From a virus: DNA of 21,725 nt. The stretch is taken from IMG/VR virus record IMGVR_UViG_3300021961_000724, positions 1-21,725 of that record, one strand, 5' to 3'. Below, piece after piece: positions 2 to 14,679 of this stretch; position 1 is the first letter of the stretch, and every line of letters starts with the position of its first letter. A model generated the notes under the pieces. It made no database searches and was not told the DNA's origin. It saw nothing but the letters and a program-made list of their open reading frames with translations. A program made the position numbers and the translations under genes.

Positions 2-3000
2 GCTGAAGACGCGTTTGAGTGGGTAGGTGAGACGGTTGTTGATGCCGCTGAATGGACCTATGACACTATACTTGAGCCTGTAGTTGCGGTTGGCGAAGGT
101 ATTATTCAGGGGGCTATAGACGATCCACTAGGCACCGCAATCATGATTGCTGCTGCCTCTACAGGTAATCCATTTATTATTGCCGCTGCCGCTGCCGCAC
201 GAACCGCCATCAACGGCGGTAGTGTCGAAGATATGCTTATATCCGCTGGGACTTCATATCTAGGTGCCGAAGTCGGTTCGTATGTAGGGGATTATATAGG
301 CAGTGCAGTTACTACCGAACTAGGGTCTAGTGCCGGGACTATAGCTACACAAGCTGCATCAGGTGCTACTAGAGGTGCTATAACTGCGGCAGCAACCGGA
401 GAAAGTATAGAAGACGCGGCCTTACAAGGCGCTATCAATGGCGCAATCTCTGGAGGTACGCGCGTTGCTGGAAGTTATGTACGAGGGCAGATAAGTCCTA
501 TTGAAGCTACTAGTTCCGGCGCCACAAATATAGCAGCAGATCCCGACTCATTTAACAGTACTTTCCGTACTACCTATAGTAGCGTTTCATCAGAATTAGG
601 ATCTCTAGTAGATGGGTTTGATGATTTACCAGATGTTATCCAAGACACTATAACAAGTGGCGCTGCCGCAGCTATAACTTCTTATATCGAAACCGGAGAA
701 GTTAATGAGGATCTTGTTGCTGCTCAGATGTTCAACGCGGCAGTTACTACCCAACTAGTGCAAAGCGCTACTGCTAATAGTGATCTTTTTGACCCTGAAA
801 CCATTGAAGGTCGTACCCGCGCCGCTTTCTTAGCTCGCGCTACTAACGGTGCCGTATCTGCTGCGTTTACTGGCGCAGATCCTTCTATGATTCTACCAAA
901 TGCGTTTACCGCTACAGCACTAGCTAGCCTAAATGAGCAAATTAATGAAACTACAGGCGGAGGTCTTCTCCGCGCAATTGACGAAATAACAGGATTACAA
1001 GAAGCTTTTGACTCCGCTTTTGGTAATGCTGAAGATATCGGTGATGATTTAGAGGCCGTAGGGGCTGATCTTGTAGCTTCTAGAGAACGTGGCGACCTCC
1101 TCACAGCAGAGGTTGAAGCAAATGCAAATGCGGTAGATGCTTACGTACAAAATGGTCAGACTTTAATTAACCGTGCAAATGATCTTCAGGGACAGCGTTC
1201 TCGCGCCGACGTTGAACTCGATGTTCTCTACGAGCGAAAAGATCAACTCGATAGTTTAGGTAGTTCTGGCACATGGAGTGCAGAATACCAAGCGGAATAT
1301 GATACGTTAATTAACGATATAAATAGTCAGGTAGCTACGGTTAACAGTCTTAATACCCAATACAATGAGGCCATATCTGCAGCAAATGCGTGGACCGAAG
1401 CGAATGGTACAAGTCAAGCGCCAAAGGGTGAGTACGCACGGTTATCTGCAGCATTTAAAAGTAGTATGGATGCGCTAGAGGCAGAGATAGAGACTCAAAA
1501 TTCTCTGGCCGAACTATGGACTGAGACCAATGCCGCGTACAATACTGCCGTTAATAGTGTTAGTGAAGCTGGAGACGCGCTTGTACGTAATGAAAGATAT
1601 ATAGATGACCTTATTACACCTGTTACAGATGCGGCCCAAAAAGCTGTAGTAGATACTATTACGGCCAATCGAGATACAGGCGAAGTACAGTTTAACGCTG
1701 ATGAATACCGGGAAATGTATGGTCTATCCGCAGACGAAAACCCTTATACCCACTGGTTAAATAGCGGACGTACTAACTATATCAGTGAAGCTCAACGTGA
1801 AACGGCGCGTAATGGCGCGCTACAACAAGCTGCGTATGCTCAAGTTATAAGTAATCCTGATGCTTTGGGAAGTGAAGAACAACTTAATGAATTAGCTAAT
1901 AATATCTTTGCCGGGATGTCTGACCAGCAAGTGGCAGCGTTAGGCGCAACTCCTGATAATGTTCGCGCCGCTATAGTGGGTATGGCCGAGGAACTCGGTA
2001 TTACGGCAGATAATGTTCGTGCTGAGTATGATGTTACCCGTGACACAGGGGTGACTGATGCAGATATTGCCTCTGGTAGAGCCAGAATAGATTTTGTAGA
2101 TACTGACTATATAGACCGAGTAAATGAGTTAACAGGCAAGGTAGGTATTAATTTTAGTTTAACTCCAAAGCTATCAAGCACACCAGTATTCAACCCTAGA
2201 TTAAATATGTATGTGCTCCCTATATACGATGAATCTGGGCGTGTTGCTTACCTTGATCCTACTACAAAAGAGCCAATCCAAGGAGTTTTAGATGCTAGCC
2301 TTGATGAATCAGGAATAGCCACTTGGAATAGTACAACCATAGAGATAGGGGCATTAGCGGCACCGCCTACACTCCTAGAACTTAGTAAGATCAATCCGGT
2401 TGTAGCAATTGATGCTGCCGGTAACTTAAACCTAAACGAACAAGCTATGTCGGAGTTAGATTGGGCTAGTCGGCAGCTTGTCCGGTTTGCCGTAGGAGCA
2501 AACAAACTAGTTAAGTCTATGGACGCAGCATATGATGAAATGGACCTTACCGAAGAGCAAAAGGCTGACGCTAAATATAATAACCAGCTTTTGGTTGGCG
2601 CAGTCCTTGATGCAGGTGGAGGTCTCTTAAACGCATTTAACGGTGTATCTGCTTTTATGCGAGATAGCCGTTACAACCCAGTAGATCCAAGATCTACAAA
2701 TTTAGGTCGCGCTTCTCAAGCGATTATGCAGATAGGTACTGCTACACAACCCGAAGAATACAATGCAGCAATTACAGAGTTACGTAAGAGTTTTGCCGAC
2801 GCTAAAGGGTTTTGGGGTACTGTCGATGCTATTTATGAGGGAGCCACAACCCGACCATTTGAATTTGCAGTAGAGTTTATTGGTAAGGAAGTAATACAAG
2901 AACTTCCGATTCTACTCGCCAGTGGTGGTGTAGGTACAGGTGTGCGTCTAGGCGCACAAGGGGTTTCCCGAGTAAGCCAACAAATCGCGTCTAGAATGGG

Positions 3001-4708
3001 ATCTGCGGCTGCATGGACTACTAATGCTGGGCTTCAGGTACTAGAAACAGCCGGAGGTACTGCCGCAGAAACTTATGCCGAGTTGTATGACGAAGCTATT
3101 AGAATGGGGGTATCCCCTGACCGGGCAGCAGAAATAGCTCAAGATGGGGCTATCGCTAACGGTGTAACCGCAGCCATTATTGAAGGTACGCTTGGTCGTA
3201 TTCTTGATCCTGGCGATGTTCTCGCCTCCAGAATTGGAGGTGGTAAGGTAAACTTTGGTAAAGTACTCGATGGGATAGCTACCAAATCCGCCGCTGTCGG
3301 GGCCGAAGGACTTTCTGAAGGTATAGAAGAGACAGCTAGCACCTATCTAAAGATTGCTATGCTAGCGGAACTTAACCCCGCAATCGTCCAAGAGGGTGGT
3401 AGATATGCAGACATGGGTAATGCGTTAGCCCAGTCGAGCGTGCTTGGTGCATTAGCTGGCACCGGAACTGCTAGTACTATGGTTGTAGGGGATGCAATAT
3501 ACGAAGCTATAGATAGTGGAACGTACACAGGTGGGGACGCAGAGATTCCAGTTGATTATTGGGGTACTCGACCTGCAGCTCTACCAGTTACGGACGACGC
3601 TACCGCAAACGCCGTTATAACCTTTAATCCAACAGTTAATACAGCATTCAATAATACCCAATCGGAAGACCCAGCGGTACGAGCAGCGGCTGAAACTGAA
3701 CTGCAAAACGCTCTTGGGTGGCAGCAGTATTTCGACGAGACAGGTGCAGTAGTAGATCTATCACAAGATGCTGATCGCGTTGGTGCCTATAACGTAGCAA
3801 GTAATATCCTTAATGCTGCTAATGATAACGCCTATACAACCCCCGGTGAGGTGCGAGATGCCTATGGTTCGATAGCAGATATCACCCCGATACAGCTATC
3901 TGATGCCGAATTGCTTGGATACACAGGCCAGCGTTCTGATGAGAATTTAGCTCAGGATCTTCGTAATACTGTAAACCGGGAGTACGTAAAAGATCTTCTA
4001 ATTGCAGCAGAGCTTCCTAGCACTGACGCCGACGTTACCGCAGCAATTGATGCAGCGTTTGAACAGTATGGGCTTGCTCCCGACACAGTATTAGATACTG
4101 GAATAGGTGATAGGTTAGCGTTTGAGTACAACCCTGCTCAAGCAGTAACTAGTATTATACAAAGGCAGCTAGGGCGTCAGGGTAGGACTGTCACTGAAGC
4201 CGATATTGATGCTGTTACAGGGATTATAGCTGCACAGGACGCGGCTACAGAACCTCTAGTATATACCGCAGAACAACTAGGATATGATGTAAACCAAGAC
4301 GGTGTGATTGATATTAAGGATCAAAATGCCCTGCAACAACTCCGAGGGCAGCAGACGACGGGGATCTACGCAGATATAGCCCCAGACATATCTCAGGAAA
4401 GTCAGTTTGCGCCAACAGGTGTATATGCGGCATTAGCGCAGCAGCAGGCTCAGAATGCTAGGCAGCGGCAACGATCTAACTTCCAACAGTTAATGGGAAT
4501 GCTTCAGGTTGCAGAAGGTCCAAAACTTGCTGTGGAAGGTCCTGACATACCGGGTATAGAATACTATTATAATCCTTATGAAGCTGAGAGTATATTTGCA
4601 ACACCGAAACAAGCTGGTATATTTGGCTCTGAGCTAGCTGGAGACAACCAAAATAGTGCAAATGACGACTTTCTAAGTCAGTTACGGCGCGCCACCGGAG
4701 GTATATGA
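2..4708 (+). CDS. Very large virion-type protein, 5' end cut by window edge
   Basis: The reading frame is open from the first complete codon at base 2, with no stop before the ATG at 143, so the gene starts upstream of the window. At least 1568 residues are visible. In order: Gly/Ala-rich hydrophobic repeats (about 140-500), a long predicted coiled coil (about 1040-1610), a segment resembling 'F..x.Y....... HWL..G' repeats of large secreted proteins (about 1690-1770), a second Gly/Ala-rich membrane-like region (about 2918-3380), and a single EF-hand/dockerin-type loop, DVNQDGVIDIKD, at 4286-4321. Near the C-terminus is an aromatic stretch followed by ESIFATP, which I recall from tail-associated proteins of marine phages. 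It overlaps the next start by one or four bases and heads a co-directional block of virion-like genes. A structural or DNA-ejection role is inferred. No enzyme domain is recognised. Confidence 0.85.
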   Translation, partial: AEDAFEWVGETVVDAAEWTYDTILEPVVAVGEGIIQGAIDDPLGTAIMIAAASTGNPFIIAAAAAARTAINGGSVEDMLISAGTSYLGAEVGSYVGDYIGSAVTTELGSSAGTIATQAASGATRGAITAAATGESIEDAALQGAINGAISGGTRVAGSYVRGQISPIEATSSGATNIAADPDSFNSTFRTTYSSVSSELGSLVDGFDDLPDVIQDTITSGAAAAITSYIETGEVNEDLVAAQMFNAAVTTQLVQSATANSDLFDPETIEGRTRAAFLARATNGAVSAAFTGADPSMILPNAFTATALASLNEQINETTGGGLLRAIDEITGLQEAFDSAFGNAEDIGDDLEAVGADLVASRERGDLLTAEVEANANAVDAYVQNGQTLINRANDLQGQRSRADVELDVLYERKDQLDSLGSSGTWSAEYQAEYDTLINDINSQVATVNSLNTQYNEAISAANAWTEANGTSQAPKGEYARLSAAFKSSMDALEAEIETQNSLAELWTETNAAYNTAVNSVSEAGDALVRNERYIDDLITPVTDAAQKAVVDTITANRDTGEVQFNADEYREMYGLSADENPYTHWLNSGRTNYISEAQRETARNGALQQAAYAQVISNPDALGSEEQLNELANNIFAGMSDQQVAALGATPDNVRAAIVGMAEELGITADNVRAEYDVTRDTGVTDADIASGRARIDFVDTDYIDRVNELTGKVGINFSLTPKLSSTPVFNPRLNMYVLPIYDESGRVAYLDPTTKEPIQGVLDASLDESGIATWNSTTIEIGALAAPPTLLELSKINPVVAIDAAGNLNLNEQAMSELDWASRQLVRFAVGANKLVKSMDAAYDEMDLTEEQKADAKYNNQLLVGAVLDAGGGLLNAFNGVSAFMRDSRYNPVDPRSTNLGRASQAIMQIGTATQPEEYNAAITELRKSFADAKGFWGTVDAIYEGATTRPFEFAVEFIGKEVIQELPILLASGGVGTGVRLGAQGVSRVSQQIASRMGSAAAWTTNAGLQVLETAGGTAAETYAELYDEAIRMGVSPDRAAEIAQDGAIANGVTAAIIEGTLGRILDPGDVLASRIGGGKVNFGKVLDGIATKSAAVGAEGLSEGIEETASTYLKIAMLAELNPAIVQEGGRYADMGNALAQSSVLGALAGTGTASTMVVGDAIYEAIDSGTYTGGDAEIPVDYWGTRPAALPVTDDATANAVITFNPTVNTAFNNTQSEDPAVRAAAETELQNALGWQQYFDETGAVVDLSQDADRVGAYNVASNILNAANDNAYTTPGEVRDAYGSIADITPIQLSDAELLGYTGQRSDENLAQDLRNTVNREYVKDLLIAAELPSTDADVTAAIDAAFEQYGLAPDTVLDTGIGDRLAFEYNPAQAVTSIIQRQLGRQGRTVTEADIDAVTGIIAAQDAATEPLVYTAEQLGYDVNQDGVIDIKDQNALQQLRGQQTTGIYADIAPDISQESQFAPTGVYAALAQQQAQNARQRQRSNFQQLMGMLQVAEGPKLAVEGPDIPGIEYYYNPYEAESIFATPKQAGIFGSELAGDNQNSANDDFLSQLRRATGGI

Positions 4709-8181: not shown

Positions 8182-11100
8182 ATGGCGGTATTTAAAGTAA
8201 CTGCCCCCAACGGTAAGGTCTACGAAGTAGACGCGCCTCTCGATACTACAGACGAGGCGTTAAGCTCTTACGTTATGGGTAAATATTTAGAGGACTTAAA
8301 TCGAGCGGAAGATGAGGCGCTTGACCGTCTTTATGCTGTACCTAAAAAGAAGGAATCAACTACTCTTCTTGGTAATATGTTACGAGGCACGGGTGCCGGT
8401 GCGATCAACATGCTGGAGTCTGCAGCGCTTGGTCTAGCTACACCTCTGGGCGAAGAATCTGAAACTGCGGCTCGTGACGTTATTAAAAGCGTTGCCGATT
8501 TCGTTAGGCCACGGTTAGCTAATCCCCAAGAGGTTTCGGCGAAGCTCTTTCAAGGTGTAGGCTCTATCCTTGGTTTGGCTCCGACTGTCCTGTTAGGCCC
8601 TGCTGCTTTGCCTGCCGCCGCTGCTATTTCTGCCGCTGCTGGTGCCGGTGAGGCTAGTGAACGTGCTCGTGAGAAAGGCGCATCCGAAGAAGATCGGGCT
8701 CTTGCATCCCGATTTGGTGTTATACCCGGTGCGTTAGACGTAATACCATTTGGTAGGTTTGCTCGCGCCGCAGGCGTCAATATCGGAGATATCCCTGTCA
8801 TAGGGGATATGATTAACAAGTTAGGACCAGATGCCGTCGAAGGTTTGGTCTCGCGCGTACAGCGGGCATCAATTAGTGGTGGTATCGAAGGCGCACAAGA
8901 AGTCGCGCAAGAGATCGGCCAAAACCTTATTGAACGTAATATCTACAACCCAGATGCTTCTGTTCTTGGTGGCACTCTAGAGTCTGGTCTCGTTGGTGGC
9001 GGTTCTGGTGCTATCGTTCAAGGTTTATTAGACCTAGCAGTCGGTCGCCGTGCCCGTGGCCCTTCTGCACCAGAAACTCCACAACTTCCTGCGTCAGAAG
9101 AACGGTTAGCGTTACCTGCACCAGATAGAGCCGCTCTACCTGCACCAGACCGTGCTGCTTTACCTGCTCCCGGCATTGCCGGACTGCTTGAGGCCCCTTC
9201 CTCTCCTGTTGCTAGGTTAGAGGCAGATATTAGAGAAGCAGAACGTGATGCCACTGCCGCTGCATCGCGTATTGAAGCGTTAAGGCAAAAAGAAATTGCG
9301 CCTACTGAGCAGGCTGCTATCGAAGTTGAGGGCCGTGAACAAGACCCATACTTCCGTCCAATGGAGGAAGAACTAGATACTATACGCCGTGCAGGCGAAC
9401 GGATTAGCCGTGCCAAAGAAGACATAGCCACTATAGAGGGACGCCCGGAAGAATTTGAAACTGCGAGATCGCAACAGGCACTACAACGAGAAGAAGAGTT
9501 ATTAGGGTCCGTACCTACTAAAGATACCGCCGCCGAAATTGAACGTGCAGTAGAAAGACAAGGTGCGCCCGAAACAGCATTGGGTATGGCAGCGCAACAA
9601 GCCGCAGCGCGTAGAATAGAAGAACGGGCGCCCGAACAAGCTCGTATAGCAGAAGCTGCGGCGCGAGAAGCAGAAGCCCGCGCGGCTGAAACAGCCCGTG
9701 TAGAGCAAGCCACAGCACAAGAAGAAGCTGCTTACCTTAGATCGCAGCGCCAACCCTCTATGCCCGAACCTAGAGATATTACTCCTACCGAGCGCCCTCC
9801 GGCGGCACCAATGCAGCCGTCATTACCCGGAGTAGGTAGACGATATGGAGCAAAGACTCAGCAAGCTAGGATGGATGCCGCTAGGGAGCGCGCCGCTGCG
9901 CCCGCACCACGTATTCTGGATGAGGCTACCCTCGATAAACTACGCATACCCAAAACTGCGCCCGTGCGTAAACGGGTTATGGATAAAGATTTCAATACTC
10001 CCGAAGTACGCCAAGAACTTATCGATTATGGCAACAACCCCCGCACCCCCAAAGTGCCCCAGCTTCTCATAGATCGTTTTGTAAAGGATGTTCCACCGGA
10101 ACAGTTAGAGGCATTTATGCCACGGGGGATGAAAGATGAAGCCCTATCCGTTTTTGGAGACGAAGTCTCACCTAGCACAGTTAAGCCAAGCCGAGGTAGA
10201 GCTGGCCCTGCAGGTGGTGTACGACGAGATCGACCCGCCAGAGGCGCTCCTGCCCCCCAAACTGAGGGCGCTGCCGGAAGAAGCGTGGTTAATGCTGCAA
10301 ATAATGTTATCAACGCTGTTGCAAGAGCGGGAGGACAACCCGCTCCATTAGATCAAAAAGTAGAAGCAGTTGCTGTCGCTCCTACACCAGCGCCAGTCGC
10401 AAAACCAAAAGCTGCGCCGAAACCAGCAGCGGGGCGCACTGCTGTCCGTCCGACACGCGAAGAAAAGAAGCCAGTTACCGAGGCAAAAAAACCTCCCGTA
10501 GATCTTACCCCCAAACTTAGCGCCGATGGTAGATATCGTTTACCGTTCTCAGAAGAGCAGATAGCTGAGTTTAAGCGTCGTGGCCCTGTTCTCCCTCGCG
10601 TCGAAGCTATGATGCGCCGCATCATCCCGGTCTTCCAAGATACTGGTGGGCGTACAGGGGGCACTAAAGCTATCCTTGCTAAAGACCCTCTTACCAAAAC
10701 AGATAGAGACGCAGTTAAAACCCTTCTAGAGAAGTCACATCCCAAGGGTTCCGATGCAGATGCAGCGGCCCGATTCTTTAGGGTACATGAGAGCCCCGTA
10801 ATGGGGCTAGAAGATATGGCCTGGGCGGAAATTCTTGGGAAGAAGCGTTATGCGCGAAGTATAGGTGAGACTGATATAGAAGCTGCATATATGCAGCATC
10901 AAGGTAAAGAGTATGCAGTAAAAGCCAGAAAATGGGTGGAGGCTAATCTCTCTCCAGATGCTCTAAGTTGGTATAAAGTTAACACCAATGACCACATACT
11001 CACCCTAGAACAAGAGATCGCTCGTAACTTAGAAGATAAAGCTAGGCACGACGCTATAACAAGGGGTGAAGACCGAGTCGTCTATATGGGAAGCCATGTA

Positions 11101-14100
11101 AGATTTAGGGCTCTTCCTTCTGACTCCGTTGTGCATCTTGGCTTACCTCTGCATCCAGAAGCTATACGTGGACTGGGTGCAGGTAATTTACGTGGCGCTC
11201 TTCGCATATTGTTTAGTACAGCTAATAGTGATCGCGTCTCTGACATAGCCAAGAAGCTGCTCGATGTTGTGGGTGACACCAAAGTAGAGGTGGTAGAGAA
11301 CCTAAAAAGCCCAGATGGTACACCGCTGGCAGGTTTATTCGATCCTAAAACTAATACAATAAAATTAGACTCCGTTATGGGTATGAACACCCATACGCTA
11401 CTGCATGAAGCTACCCACATGGCGGTTTCGGCGACGTTAGCTAAACCGGGACACCCCTTAACAAAACAACTTACAAAGCTCTTTGAGAATGCTAAAGGTT
11501 CTCTGGAGAACTTCTACGGCGCCCAGTCTGTAGATGAGTTCGTATCTGAAGTGTTTTCAAACCCAGAGTTCCAAGCGGAACTAGCGCAGCTTAATGAATC
11601 CGGCAAACCCGTATCGATGCTGCAACAGTTCATGAATATTGTTGGTAACTTCTTACGGCGTATGGTTGGACTACAGCCCAAGGGTATTACCTCTGCGCTC
11701 AACGCTGCTGATCGTATGATCGAAAGCATTATTGCTCCGGCCCCTGATACTCGCGCTGCTAATGAACTGTTTATGCTGTCTCGTTTCGGCGGTGCAGCTA
11801 GAGTTCTAAATGGTGCGCTTAACAATATGCCACCGATAACAAAGGATAGCGCAGAGCGGTTTGTTAACTTCATAAAAGATAGAAACATACCTCTACGTGC
11901 TAGGCAGGCGCTCCAGTACGTCACTCCTTTGCACGGTGCTACTGAGATTGCTGAGAAGTATATCCCCGGTGCAAGTAAGCTGAACGATATCGTGCGTAGG
12001 CAGAGCGGTGTAATAAACAAGGGCCAAGAGGCCATCGACGCTGTTATTAAAGGCATATCTTCTTGGGGTCGTAGCAACCCAGAGAAGCTCGCTATCTTCG
12101 ACGAACTCGTAGTGTTATCCACTAGTGGGGAAGTAGACCCAGAACTCTCTCAAACGGATGCCCAGAAGAAATACGGTAGTGATCCAGAGCGTATGAAGGA
12201 TTGGCGCGATGCCAAGCGTATGTTCAACGAGATCGGGGATGGTGGACGTACACAATACCGTACACTTCGTAATACCTATAAAGCCCTTCTCGGTGATATT
12301 CAGTCTACATTACGCAAACGCTTGCGTGACGAGGTTGGTGATGCCGAAGGGCAAGCCATATACAATGAAATAAATAAAGCGTTAGTAGCTAACGGTGCTA
12401 TCGACCCATACTTCCCATTGTTCCGCCGTGGTGATTACTGGGTAACATATACAGCTACAAACCCCCGCACTGGTAAGCCAGATTTCTTCGCCGAAGCCTT
12501 TGAATCTAAGACGGCAGCACAGACTGCCATAAAGCAACTCAAGGCTACTGGGGGCGCTACAGATATCAACGAATACACCAGCCGAGGCCAGATAGACTAT
12601 AGCAAAGCTCCATCGACTGCCTTTGTTAACGATATCTTGAAGACAATGAAGGTCAATGGCATCGAGCCGAAGAAAAAAGCTAGCGATCCAGATACACTAG
12701 CGGATCAAGTGGTGCGTTTATATTTGGACTCCATACCAGAACGGTCCATGCTGCAAGGGTTCCGGCAACGTAAAGGCACACCCGGCGCTAAGAAGGATGC
12801 GGTGCTTGCGCTAAGAAATAAGGGTATGGGTATCGTAAGGCAGCTCGCTCAGATCGAGCATGGCCGAGAGATCCAGCAATACAGAAACGAAATCGACGAG
12901 TATGTTAAGACACAGAAGCAAAAGCCAGAGGTCGATATAGAGCAGAGCGCACTGCTAGATAATATAAAAGAAGACCTAGACCGCAGGGCACGCTTCGCTG
13001 CCAGCCCAAATATATCCAACTGGTCTAAATTCGGTAGCTCCCTTGGGTTTAACTTTACTCTCGGGTTCAACGTGTCTTCTGCGTTGGTCAACCTGACTGC
13101 ATTACCTATGATCGTATATCCGTACCTAGCTGGTAAATACGGAGGTCCGGGTGTTGCGGGTACTGCTCGTGGTTATGCTGAAGCCTCTAGGGCTATGGGC
13201 AATGCAGTAAAATTATTTATGTCGAGTGGTAGAGAGCGTCAGATTGAGACGTATGGGCCTGACGGAACCAGTAAGGTAAAGCGTACCGTCAGTGCTGCCC
13301 CATCCCTCGACAACTACAACTTCGATGCTGCCAATACACCACCGGAAATAAAGATGCGTCGCGCATTAGCCGAGGTGGCAGCAGAACAGGGTATGCTCAA
13401 CCGATCCATTACACAGGACGTATTGGATATGGAGGGTATGGATACGTCTGCGGCAAGTGCCTTACAGAAAATTAATATGGCGTCTGGGTTTATGTTCCAC
13501 CACTTGGAACGCGCTCAACGCCAGATAACCCTCGATACTGCATACCAGATGGAGCTATCCAAACGAGTAGGTGTGCCTGTTAACGAGTTAGGCGCAGCCT
13601 ATGCAAGTGGTAGAATATCAGACGCCGATATGCAGGCTGCCGCCCGTGAAGCTGTATATGTAACCGAGATGACTAACGGCGGCGTACAGGCTGCAGGTGC
13701 TCCACCTATCTCTCAGAGCAACATAGGCCGCATAGCTTTTATGTTTAAGCGTTACGGTGTGTCTATGTACTACATGCTGTGGAAGCTCAGTGAGAACTCG
13801 ATCAAAGGATCTCCCGCTGATAAGGCCATGGCACGTAGGCAGCTTGCCGGAGTATTCGGTGCAACAGGTCTACTAGCTGGCGTCGGTGGTATGCCAATAT
13901 TTGGCACCCTGGCTATGATCGCTAATATGTTCCTCGAAGATGATGAGGAAGACTTCCAGACCATGACACGTCAATATTTGGGTGAGGGTGTCTACGGGGG
14001 TCTTGGTAATTACCTATTTGGTGTAGATATCTCAGCACGTATTGGTCTGTCTGAACTTATCTTCCGTGAGAACCGCATTGCCAAGGATCAAAGCGTATTC

Positions 14101-14679
14101 TTCACCGCCCTTGAAGAGCTAGGTGGTCCTGTTGTTGGTCTCGGTATGGGTATCGAACGTGGTCTTGATATGATTTCTCAGGGCGATACCACACGGGGTC
14201 TTGAAGCTATGTCTCCCGCAGCTATCCGTAATGTTATGAAGGGTATTAGGTTTGCCACCGAAGGCGCCAATACAATGCGCGGTGACTCCATCGTGGATGA
14301 TATCGGTATTGGTCACTCACTAGCTCAGATGCTCGGGTTTGCGCCAGCGGATTACTCCAGACAACTTATGGAGAACGCTGCGCTTAAGAAGATTGACCGA
14401 GCTGTAGCAAAAGAACGTACCAACATACTACGTAGGCTCTACATATCTGCACGCTCTGGTGATAGTGAAGGCGTCAGGGATGCCGTAGAACGCCTGAGAA
14501 GATTTAATAGTAGACATGCCAACGCCGCCATAACAGCGGATTCGGTGAAGCGTTCTATGAAGAGCCACCAGAAGACCAGTGCAGAGATGCACCACGGCAT
14601 TACGCTCAACAAGAACATGCGCGCCACGCTACAAGCAGAGGCTCGTGACTTCGACAAGAACGTATCTATCTGGGATTAA
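8182..14679 (+). CDS. Giant polyvalent-type virion protein with HEXXH metalloprotease and PLxRFG-like motifs
   Basis: A 2165-residue protein; AGGGGG at 8168-8173 is eight bases before the ATG. Residues 1-60 (F.V.AP.GK.Y.VDAP, then a short helix) form a compact N-terminal module. Residues 67-257 are Gly/Ala-rich and membrane-like, closing with GGIEGAQEVAQEIGQN. Three tandem ALPAPDRA units follow at 310-333, then a long charged coiled coil (about 337-523) and a Pro/Ala/Lys linker (about 697-777). HEATH at 1075-1079 is an HEXXH zinc-protease motif, with E1119 or E1122 in DEFVSEVF as a possible third ligand. PLFRRG at 1412-1417 matches the PLxRFG family signature of giant phage proteins. Hydrophobic stretches lie at about 1617-1653 and 1888-1918, then LFGVDISARIGLSEL at 1945-1959. 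The likely role is an internal virion protein delivered with the DNA. Protease activity is unproven. Confidence 0.9.
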   Translation: MAVFKVTAPNGKVYEVDAPLDTTDEALSSYVMGKYLEDLNRAEDEALDRLYAVPKKKESTTLLGNMLRGTGAGAINMLESAALGLATPLGEESETAARDVIKSVADFVRPRLANPQEVSAKLFQGVGSILGLAPTVLLGPAALPAAAAISAAAGAGEASERAREKGASEEDRALASRFGVIPGALDVIPFGRFARAAGVNIGDIPVIGDMINKLGPDAVEGLVSRVQRASISGGIEGAQEVAQEIGQNLIERNIYNPDASVLGGTLESGLVGGGSGAIVQGLLDLAVGRRARGPSAPETPQLPASEERLALPAPDRAALPAPDRAALPAPGIAGLLEAPSSPVARLEADIREAERDATAAASRIEALRQKEIAPTEQAAIEVEGREQDPYFRPMEEELDTIRRAGERISRAKEDIATIEGRPEEFETARSQQALQREEELLGSVPTKDTAAEIERAVERQGAPETALGMAAQQAAARRIEERAPEQARIAEAAAREAEARAAETARVEQATAQEEAAYLRSQRQPSMPEPRDITPTERPPAAPMQPSLPGVGRRYGAKTQQARMDAARERAAAPAPRILDEATLDKLRIPKTAPVRKRVMDKDFNTPEVRQELIDYGNNPRTPKVPQLLIDRFVKDVPPEQLEAFMPRGMKDEALSVFGDEVSPSTVKPSRGRAGPAGGVRRDRPARGAPAPQTEGAAGRSVVNAANNVINAVARAGGQPAPLDQKVEAVAVAPTPAPVAKPKAAPKPAAGRTAVRPTREEKKPVTEAKKPPVDLTPKLSADGRYRLPFSEEQIAEFKRRGPVLPRVEAMMRRIIPVFQDTGGRTGGTKAILAKDPLTKTDRDAVKTLLEKSHPKGSDADAAARFFRVHESPVMGLEDMAWAEILGKKRYARSIGETDIEAAYMQHQGKEYAVKARKWVEANLSPDALSWYKVNTNDHILTLEQEIARNLEDKARHDAITRGEDRVVYMGSHVRFRALPSDSVVHLGLPLHPEAIRGLGAGNLRGALRILFSTANSDRVSDIAKKLLDVVGDTKVEVVENLKSPDGTPLAGLFDPKTNTIKLDSVMGMNTHTLLHEATHMAVSATLAKPGHPLTKQLTKLFENAKGSLENFYGAQSVDEFVSEVFSNPEFQAELAQLNESGKPVSMLQQFMNIVGNFLRRMVGLQPKGITSALNAADRMIESIIAPAPDTRAANELFMLSRFGGAARVLNGALNNMPPITKDSAERFVNFIKDRNIPLRARQALQYVTPLHGATEIAEKYIPGASKLNDIVRRQSGVINKGQEAIDAVIKGISSWGRSNPEKLAIFDELVVLSTSGEVDPELSQTDAQKKYGSDPERMKDWRDAKRMFNEIGDGGRTQYRTLRNTYKALLGDIQSTLRKRLRDEVGDAEGQAIYNEINKALVANGAIDPYFPLFRRGDYWVTYTATNPRTGKPDFFAEAFESKTAAQTAIKQLKATGGATDINEYTSRGQIDYSKAPSTAFVNDILKTMKVNGIEPKKKASDPDTLADQVVRLYLDSIPERSMLQGFRQRKGTPGAKKDAVLALRNKGMGIVRQLAQIEHGREIQQYRNEIDEYVKTQKQKPEVDIEQSALLDNIKEDLDRRARFAASPNISNWSKFGSSLGFNFTLGFNVSSALVNLTALPMIVYPYLAGKYGGPGVAGTARGYAEASRAMGNAVKLFMSSGRERQIETYGPDGTSKVKRTVSAAPSLDNYNFDAANTPPEIKMRRALAEVAAEQGMLNRSITQDVLDMEGMDTSAASALQKINMASGFMFHHLERAQRQITLDTAYQMELSKRVGVPVNELGAAYASGRISDADMQAAAREAVYVTEMTNGGVQAAGAPPISQSNIGRIAFMFKRYGVSMYYMLWKLSENSIKGSPADKAMARRQLAGVFGATGLLAGVGGMPIFGTLAMIANMFLEDDEEDFQTMTRQYLGEGVYGGLGNYLFGVDISARIGLSELIFRENRIAKDQSVFFTALEELGGPVVGLGMGIERGLDMISQGDTTRGLEAMSPAAIRNVMKGIRFATEGANTMRGDSIVDDIGIGHSLAQMLGFAPADYSRQLMENAALKKIDRAVAKERTNILRRLYISARSGDSEGVRDAVERLRRFNSRHANAAITADSVKRSMKSHQKTSAEMHHGITLNKNMRATLQAEARDFDKNVSIWD
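9109..9180 (+). repeat. Three tandem 24-base units encoding ALPAPDRA
   Basis: Inside the 2165-residue gene, three consecutive in-frame 24-base units encode ALPAPDRA, ALPAPDRA and ALPAPGIA. The DNA copies differ at many third codon positions while the peptide is kept in the first two. This points to an old duplication held by selection on the peptide rather than to recent slippage. It probably forms a Pro-rich spacer between the membrane-like N-terminal region and the coiled coil. Confidence 0.85.

Follow-up and report, generated by a model that had tools for sequence, protein, structure and literature searches.

Zincin-like peptidases are the commonest domain of phage polyvalent proteins, and the zincin-like MPTase domains of these proteins fall into 12 clades (Iyer et al. 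2017, PMC5512222). The same study proposed two kinds of role: the domains might cleave polyvalent proteins, be it ahead of packaging, inside the head or following injection, or they might attack host proteins. It also discussed DdrB of phage P1, which is cut before packaging. The virion RNA polymerase of phage N4 (gp50, vRNAP) is ejected (PMC12633501). It enters the capsid uncut (PMC5512222), and the recombinant protein was found to be intact, with no degradation (PMC12633501). Gp48 of phage PhiM1 is a tetrameric ejection protein of the capsid ejectosome (PMC11440229). Our literature search found no report of protease activity or zinc for these phage domains. Both the class of domain and its occurrence in polyvalent proteins have already been published, as have its proposed roles (PMC5512222). 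The novelty implied by a preliminary description of the present locus, which had noticed a metalloprotease motif within a giant phage protein, is reduced because the class was described in such proteins in 2017. The find is genuine, though for the most part to be expected.

The locus lies in a 21,725-nt stretch of DNA (the window) from the virus record IMGVR_UViG_3300021961_000724, in a gene for a protein of 2165 aa whose features are listed in Table 1. The ORF starts with ATG, and a plausible ribosome-binding site (AGGGGG) is present immediately 5′ of it. The LPD39 match was above the Pfam gathering score. The C-terminal tail was identified by NCBIfam with 374 bits against a cut-off of 100 (E 1e-111), and by PHROGs as a 'DarB-like antirestriction' tail at residues 1392-2153 (E 7e-63). 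Judged from its sequence, the protein has the architecture of a phage polyvalent protein, LPD39 plus a PLxRFG tail. This tail also ends the giant proteins of many phages, several of them named methylase, SNF2 helicase or transglycosylase, and the PLxRFG-tailed proteins of H66 and Epa33 are annotated as structural protein. In a 67-kb relative, the terminase, portal, capsid and virion structural protein genes are all located upstream in the same direction, which indicates that the polyvalent gene lies at the end of the late region. A search for the PF12236 connector gave no match, and neither did its control. Convergent replication genes (primase/helicase and SNF2-type helicase) were found 3′ of it in the window. 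A second giant, Ala-rich protein of at least 1568 aa, with its 5′ end open, is encoded upstream at 2-4708; no Pfam or PHROG match was found for it.

Table 1. Features of the polyvalent protein gene in the window (nucleotide positions of the window; residues of the 2165-aa protein).
Feature	Position	Strand	Basis or remark
Polyvalent/ejection-type phage protein gene, 2165 aa	8182-14679	+	ORF reading, domain scans
Small N-terminal module (MAVFKVTAPNGKVYEVDAP...)	8182-8286	+	Recurs as 'YEV.GPDG.VYEVEGPEGA' in full-length relatives
Linker region, low conservation, rich in Ala/Glu/Pro, residues ~290-830	9049-10671	+	Direct sequence reading
Zincin-like metallopeptidase domain as modelled, residues 977-1192	11110-11757	+	Conservation, AlphaFold2, structural matches
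Strand TIKLD (1059-1063), adjoins active-site helix	11356-11370	+	AlphaFold2 model
HEATH, residues 1075-1079: predicted zinc ligands H1075 and H1079, predicted general base E1076	11404-11418	+	
Y1112, probable catalytic Tyr, 7 residues before E1119	11515-11517	+	Tyr in 52/57 sequences
DEFVSEVF, second helix, from residue 1118	11533-11556	+	AlphaFold2, conservation
E1119, best candidate for third ligand	11536-11538	+	Within DEFVSEVF helix
Conserved linker IIAPAPDTRAANELF, residues 1183-1197	11728-11772	+	Leads into disordered stretch; candidate hinge/cleavage site (speculative)
LPD39 (large polyvalent protein associated domain 39), residues 1247-1384	11920-12333	+	Pfam
Helical PLxRFG / DarB-like C-terminal tail, residues 1409-2146	12406-14619	+	NF032893

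HEATH proved to be the only HEXXH motif of the protein, at the position and on the strand given before; by composition, 0.015 such motifs would be expected in 2165 aa. A scan of viral contigs with a three-sequence profile gave at least 361 relatives, and 80 loci were kept. HEXXH is present in 80/80 of them. The scan used two patterns, one of which contains HEXXH, and bias from fetching by motif was therefore checked: all 44 non-redundant loci which fail to match the HEXXH pattern, and were thus fetched via the second one, also keep HEXXH. The reading as a metalloprotease motif, which a loss of HEXXH in homologues would have contradicted, thus stands. In a set of 57 sequences with less than 80% identity, residues H1071, H1075, E1076, H1079, G1113, E1119, F1120, E1123, N1127 and F1130 are invariant (57/57), while the columns before the domain (901-980) have a mean conservation of ~0.3 (about 30%). 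HEXXH alone is short, and the motif might be a chance one or a decayed, functionless one. We rejected this on the count of 80/80 and regard it as having a negligible probability, given the low expectation, the complete conservation together with a matching Glu helix and the confident zincin model described below; no tool result favours decay.

Eight relatives in bacterial contigs keep HEXXH as well, and several of these are much larger polyvalent proteins. Three loci in contigs assigned to Comamonas and Propionivibrio (L101, L102 and L103) encode polyvalent proteins of 3.8-4.3 kaa with this zincin domain, and that of L101 has three HEXXH motifs. Throughout the relatives of this zincin-PLxRFG family, the zincin domain is placed directly before the PLxRFG tail. 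A PF18823 inorganic pyrophosphatase domain was observed upstream of the HEATH zincin in Rhizobium phage RHph_TM3_14A (L004:4818-11741).

For the 2165-aa protein alone, Pfam, PHROG and PADLOC scans gave no peptidase name, and Pfam gave no significant peptidase match. The MPTase-PolyVal model (PF18818), which covers part of the superfamily, did not match the window domain and had one sub-threshold match among 7 relatives. ATLF was matched in 21 of 56 family members (best 0.0033), and lethal factor was matched at 0.48 upon a PDB sequence search with the domain profile. An independent domain profile (A3) had borderline matches to the PDB sequences 9sfn (4e-4) and 8vb2 (0.02). The strong 8vb2 match of another profile (A1) was inflated, because A1 included the PhiM1-like Rambam sequence.

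We then considered the AlphaFold2 model of residues 977-1192, built from 56 sequences (pLDDT 86.8, pTM 0.84). It contains a strand at 1059-1063, the active-site helix THTLLHEATHMAV at 1070-1086 and a second helix at 1117-1126 which carries E1119. In model numbering, the strands are 58-62, 72-78 and 83-87, and the helices are 41-53, 94-110 and 141-150. The helix around HEATH and the strand before it had both been predicted in the preliminary description. Foldseek against PDB found no match below 0.001 for this model or for a second one of residues 980-2165; the case for the fold therefore rests on VIA-align, a search of viral models (BFVD) and the conserved residues. The top structural match was C1 of the N4 virion RNA polymerase (9pnt), with Z 8.1 over 165 residues at 3.8 Å, a Z near 8 being modest by the aligner's own note. 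The next matches (Z 4-5.4) were the zincins lethal factor, SPRTN, PPEP and selecase. Among viral models, the best matches were polyvalent proteins, the phi14:2 structural protein, internal core proteins and virion RNA polymerases. The modelled zincin fold is supported in that a single enzyme superfamily makes up the match list, in accord with the conserved residues. Sequence conservation and model together indicate that residues ~980-1185 are a genuine conserved zincin-like domain of metallopeptidase type, as had been proposed from the motif. The polyvalent-protein MPTases (PMC5512222) are alike in that the first C-terminal helix bears HEXXH and the second bears the Glu, in their three-stranded sheet and in being embedded in a giant phage protein of several domains, LPD domains among them. 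They differ in that the window domain has no significant PF18818 match.

The preliminary description had also suggested that the acidic motif DEFVSEVF could supply a third zinc ligand. Two Glu residues of this helix are invariant in the family, but E1119 is retained in all distant copies and E1123 is replaced by T, Q or other residues in cr116, Rambam, PhiM1 and KP34-like proteins. Because E1123 is lost in these distant homologues, the putative third ligand is best assigned to E1119, which is the best candidate in the conserved sequence. A Tyr is positioned exactly seven residues before it (Y-x6-E) in 52/57 sequences; Tyr1112 is replaced by R, D or F in 4/57, and the equivalent position of N4 has no Tyr. 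The Y-x6-E arrangement was also found in crAss-like, PhiM1-like and KP34-like copies. Lethal factor shares it, and the M34-like lethal factor and PPEP peptidases as a group combine the zincin fold with HEXXH...Tyr-x6-Glu spacing. The spacing between E1076 and Y1112 (36 residues) equals that between E153 and Y189, the catalytic pair in the title of the PPEP-3 entry. Y1112 is therefore the probable catalytic Tyr. In other respects these peptidases are unlike the window domain, with ~10-20% identity in fold alignments; the window protein is a phage protein, and sharing of substrates is unsupported.

The window domain is homologous to a domain in virion proteins of other phages. Profile-profile comparison with crAss-like virion proteins gave 99.5% (E 7e-23), with the window sequence absent from the second profile, and comparison with PhiM1/KP34 internal core proteins gave 97.8%. 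The closest solved copy is that of N4. Gp50 carries HELVH at 2228 with an NEF helix, and a large C-terminal region of helices comes after them, but it has an RNA polymerase upstream and a longer insert between the helices, and it lacks the Tyr seven residues before Glu. The phi14:2 gp65 and crAss-like 'RNA polymerase associated' virion proteins share HEXXH, YG and EF in the profile-profile comparison. In gp65, unlike the window protein, the domain lies close to the N-terminus (HEXXH at residue 245 of 1421) and the remaining protein differs. The phi14:2 g065 adjoins the virion RNA polymerase g066 and is annotated from virion mass spectrometry. PhiM1 gp48 and the KP34-like internal core protein have HEAAH/HELIH and Y-x6-E ahead of a helical ejection core, and the structural alignment with gp48 (PDB 8vb2) runs beyond the zincin. 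They are, however, about half as long, were published as endolysin-like, and have no detected downstream sequence similarity. The module thus recurs in Rhizobium phages, in the RNA-polymerase-associated virion proteins of crAss-like phages, in the virion RNA polymerases of N4-like phages and in the PhiM1/KP34 internal core protein. A Skulduggery tblastn match that begins inside the zincin was rejected as a zincin, since its aligned stretch is acetyltransferase-like and its own HEAFH is elsewhere.

The annotation of the PhiM1 homologue raises the possibility that the domain is instead a peptidoglycan-degrading head of a T7 gp16-type ejection protein. Residues 268-528 of the PhiM1 tetrameric ejection protein (TEP) were published as endolysin/exotransglycosidase-like from BLASTP and DALI (PMC11440229), and the position of the domain resembles that of the T7 gp16 lytic domain. 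The window domain, however, matches zincins and N4 C1, and a lytic transglycosylase was detected by Pfam neither in the window protein nor in PhiM1 gp48 or its KP34-like counterpart. In the 2165-aa protein neither Pfam nor PHROG shows an N-terminal lytic transglycosylase, a lytic domain that is also absent from P22-type gp16. PhiM1 gp48 (L091:3422-7213) itself has HEAAH at residue 385 with YGLSDTHEF, that is Y-x6-E, inside region 268-528, in which Pfam found no lytic domain. HELIH and Y-x6-E are also present in the proteins of Klebsiella phage AltoGao (L092:2963-6682) and Proteus phage RS8pmA (L094:2996-6877), which are KP34-like 'internal virion protein with endolysin domain'. A peptidoglycan-degrading role is thus very unlikely for the window domain, and the sequence motifs suggest that the PhiM1/KP34 'endolysin' region is probably a zincin, i.e. 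misannotated.

The model of residues 980-2165 (pLDDT 79.7, pTM 0.68) also matched N4 C1 best (Z 8.4). It then matched PhiM1 TEP (Z 8.1, 346 residues), in an alignment that passes beyond the zincin and in which the rigid-body difference is large, and it matched the T7 core protein with Z 6.3 over 233 residues; such Z values for helical proteins can reflect chance arrangement. In the profile-profile comparison, the PhiM1 match was confined to the zincin, with no downstream extension. A gp16-type helical ejection core in the C-terminal half is thus a lead from the model. Directly behind the zincin domain, an iLsPAPxxRxAGxLY motif is conserved in most relatives, and it leads into residues 1188-1220, where the model is least ordered. 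Sequence and model make this linker (1183-1197) a candidate hinge or cut site, as a speculation.

We consider it likely that residues ~980-1185 form a zincin-like metallopeptidase in a giant polyvalent protein which is probably packed and ejected, and that it most likely performs proteolysis in cis. Analogy with the proteins above supports the suggestion that this giant is of the packaged and ejected kind; we infer zinc binding, proteolysis, packaging and ejection for this phage. Zinc would be bound by H1075 and H1079 of the active-site helix and by E1119 of the next helix, E1076 would activate water, and Y1112 would help to stabilise the intermediate. The giant protein would be packed in the capsid and ejected together with the DNA. 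Limited proteolysis would act in cis on its own chain, for example at the SPAPxxRxAGxLY linker, or on co-packaged ejection proteins. Processing in cis is favoured because of the P1 DdrB precedent and the conserved unfolded linker behind the domain. Constant self-cleavage is unlikely, because N4 gp50 is packaged uncut and recombinant gp50 is intact, and action in cis after packaging or ejection is favoured. The protease might be silent in the capsid and active during or after ejection, so that the C-terminal tail would come free of the N-terminal parts; this is the least certain step and is put forward tentatively.

The main rival to this most likely role, cis-processing after packaging or ejection, holds that the domain is an injected effector, a protease that after ejection cuts a host protein (for example a defence or envelope factor) and not its own chain. 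Polyvalent proteins combine several enzymes and are injected, and this option was listed by Iyer et al. (PMC5512222); moreover, the structurally similar zincins act on other proteins, and the catalytic residues are all invariant across diverse phages. We nevertheless regard an effector role as rather unlikely, since no substrate or host factor is known and the fixed place before the PLxRFG tail fits self-handling at least equally well. The domain could also be a structural zincin of a packaging/ejection module, without protease activity, whose motif is kept for metal-based stability. The N4 C-terminal region including the domain is required for encapsidation of the uncut protein (PMC5512222), the N4 CTD autoinhibits the polymerase, and the PhiM1 copy is located in the assembled ejectosome (PMC11440229). 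However, the general-base Glu of HEXXH is dispensable for zinc binding, yet it is invariant in 57/57 sequences and also kept in the crAss-like, PhiM1, KP34 and N4 copies. A purely structural role is unlikely. Structure prediction and fold search, which had been recommended for this segment, returned a predicted zincin fold with N4 C1 and established zincins as matches, and cis-processing after packaging or ejection is the preferred role.

Within the literature searched, what is new is the size and uniformity of the zincin-PLxRFG family, the residue-level active site and the likely re-annotation of PhiM1/KP34. Giant injected proteins must pass a narrow tail channel and then carry out a number of unrelated tasks. 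The standing hypothesis is that a protease of their own divides them up, and no activity reports were found in the literature searched. A single protease module might be common to the proteins ejected by N4-like, crAss-like and PhiM1/KP34-like phages and by many uncultured ones, silent in the capsid, switched on after tail passage and cutting the giant protein at SPAPxxRxAGxLY so that its parts work separately, but we hold this general scheme to be improbable. The family, with its at least 361 relatives, offers a clean, testable active site, and the cultured relative RHph_TM3_14A is a practical experimental model. The link to the solved ejection proteins of PhiM1 and N4 would let metal binding be checked in existing maps.
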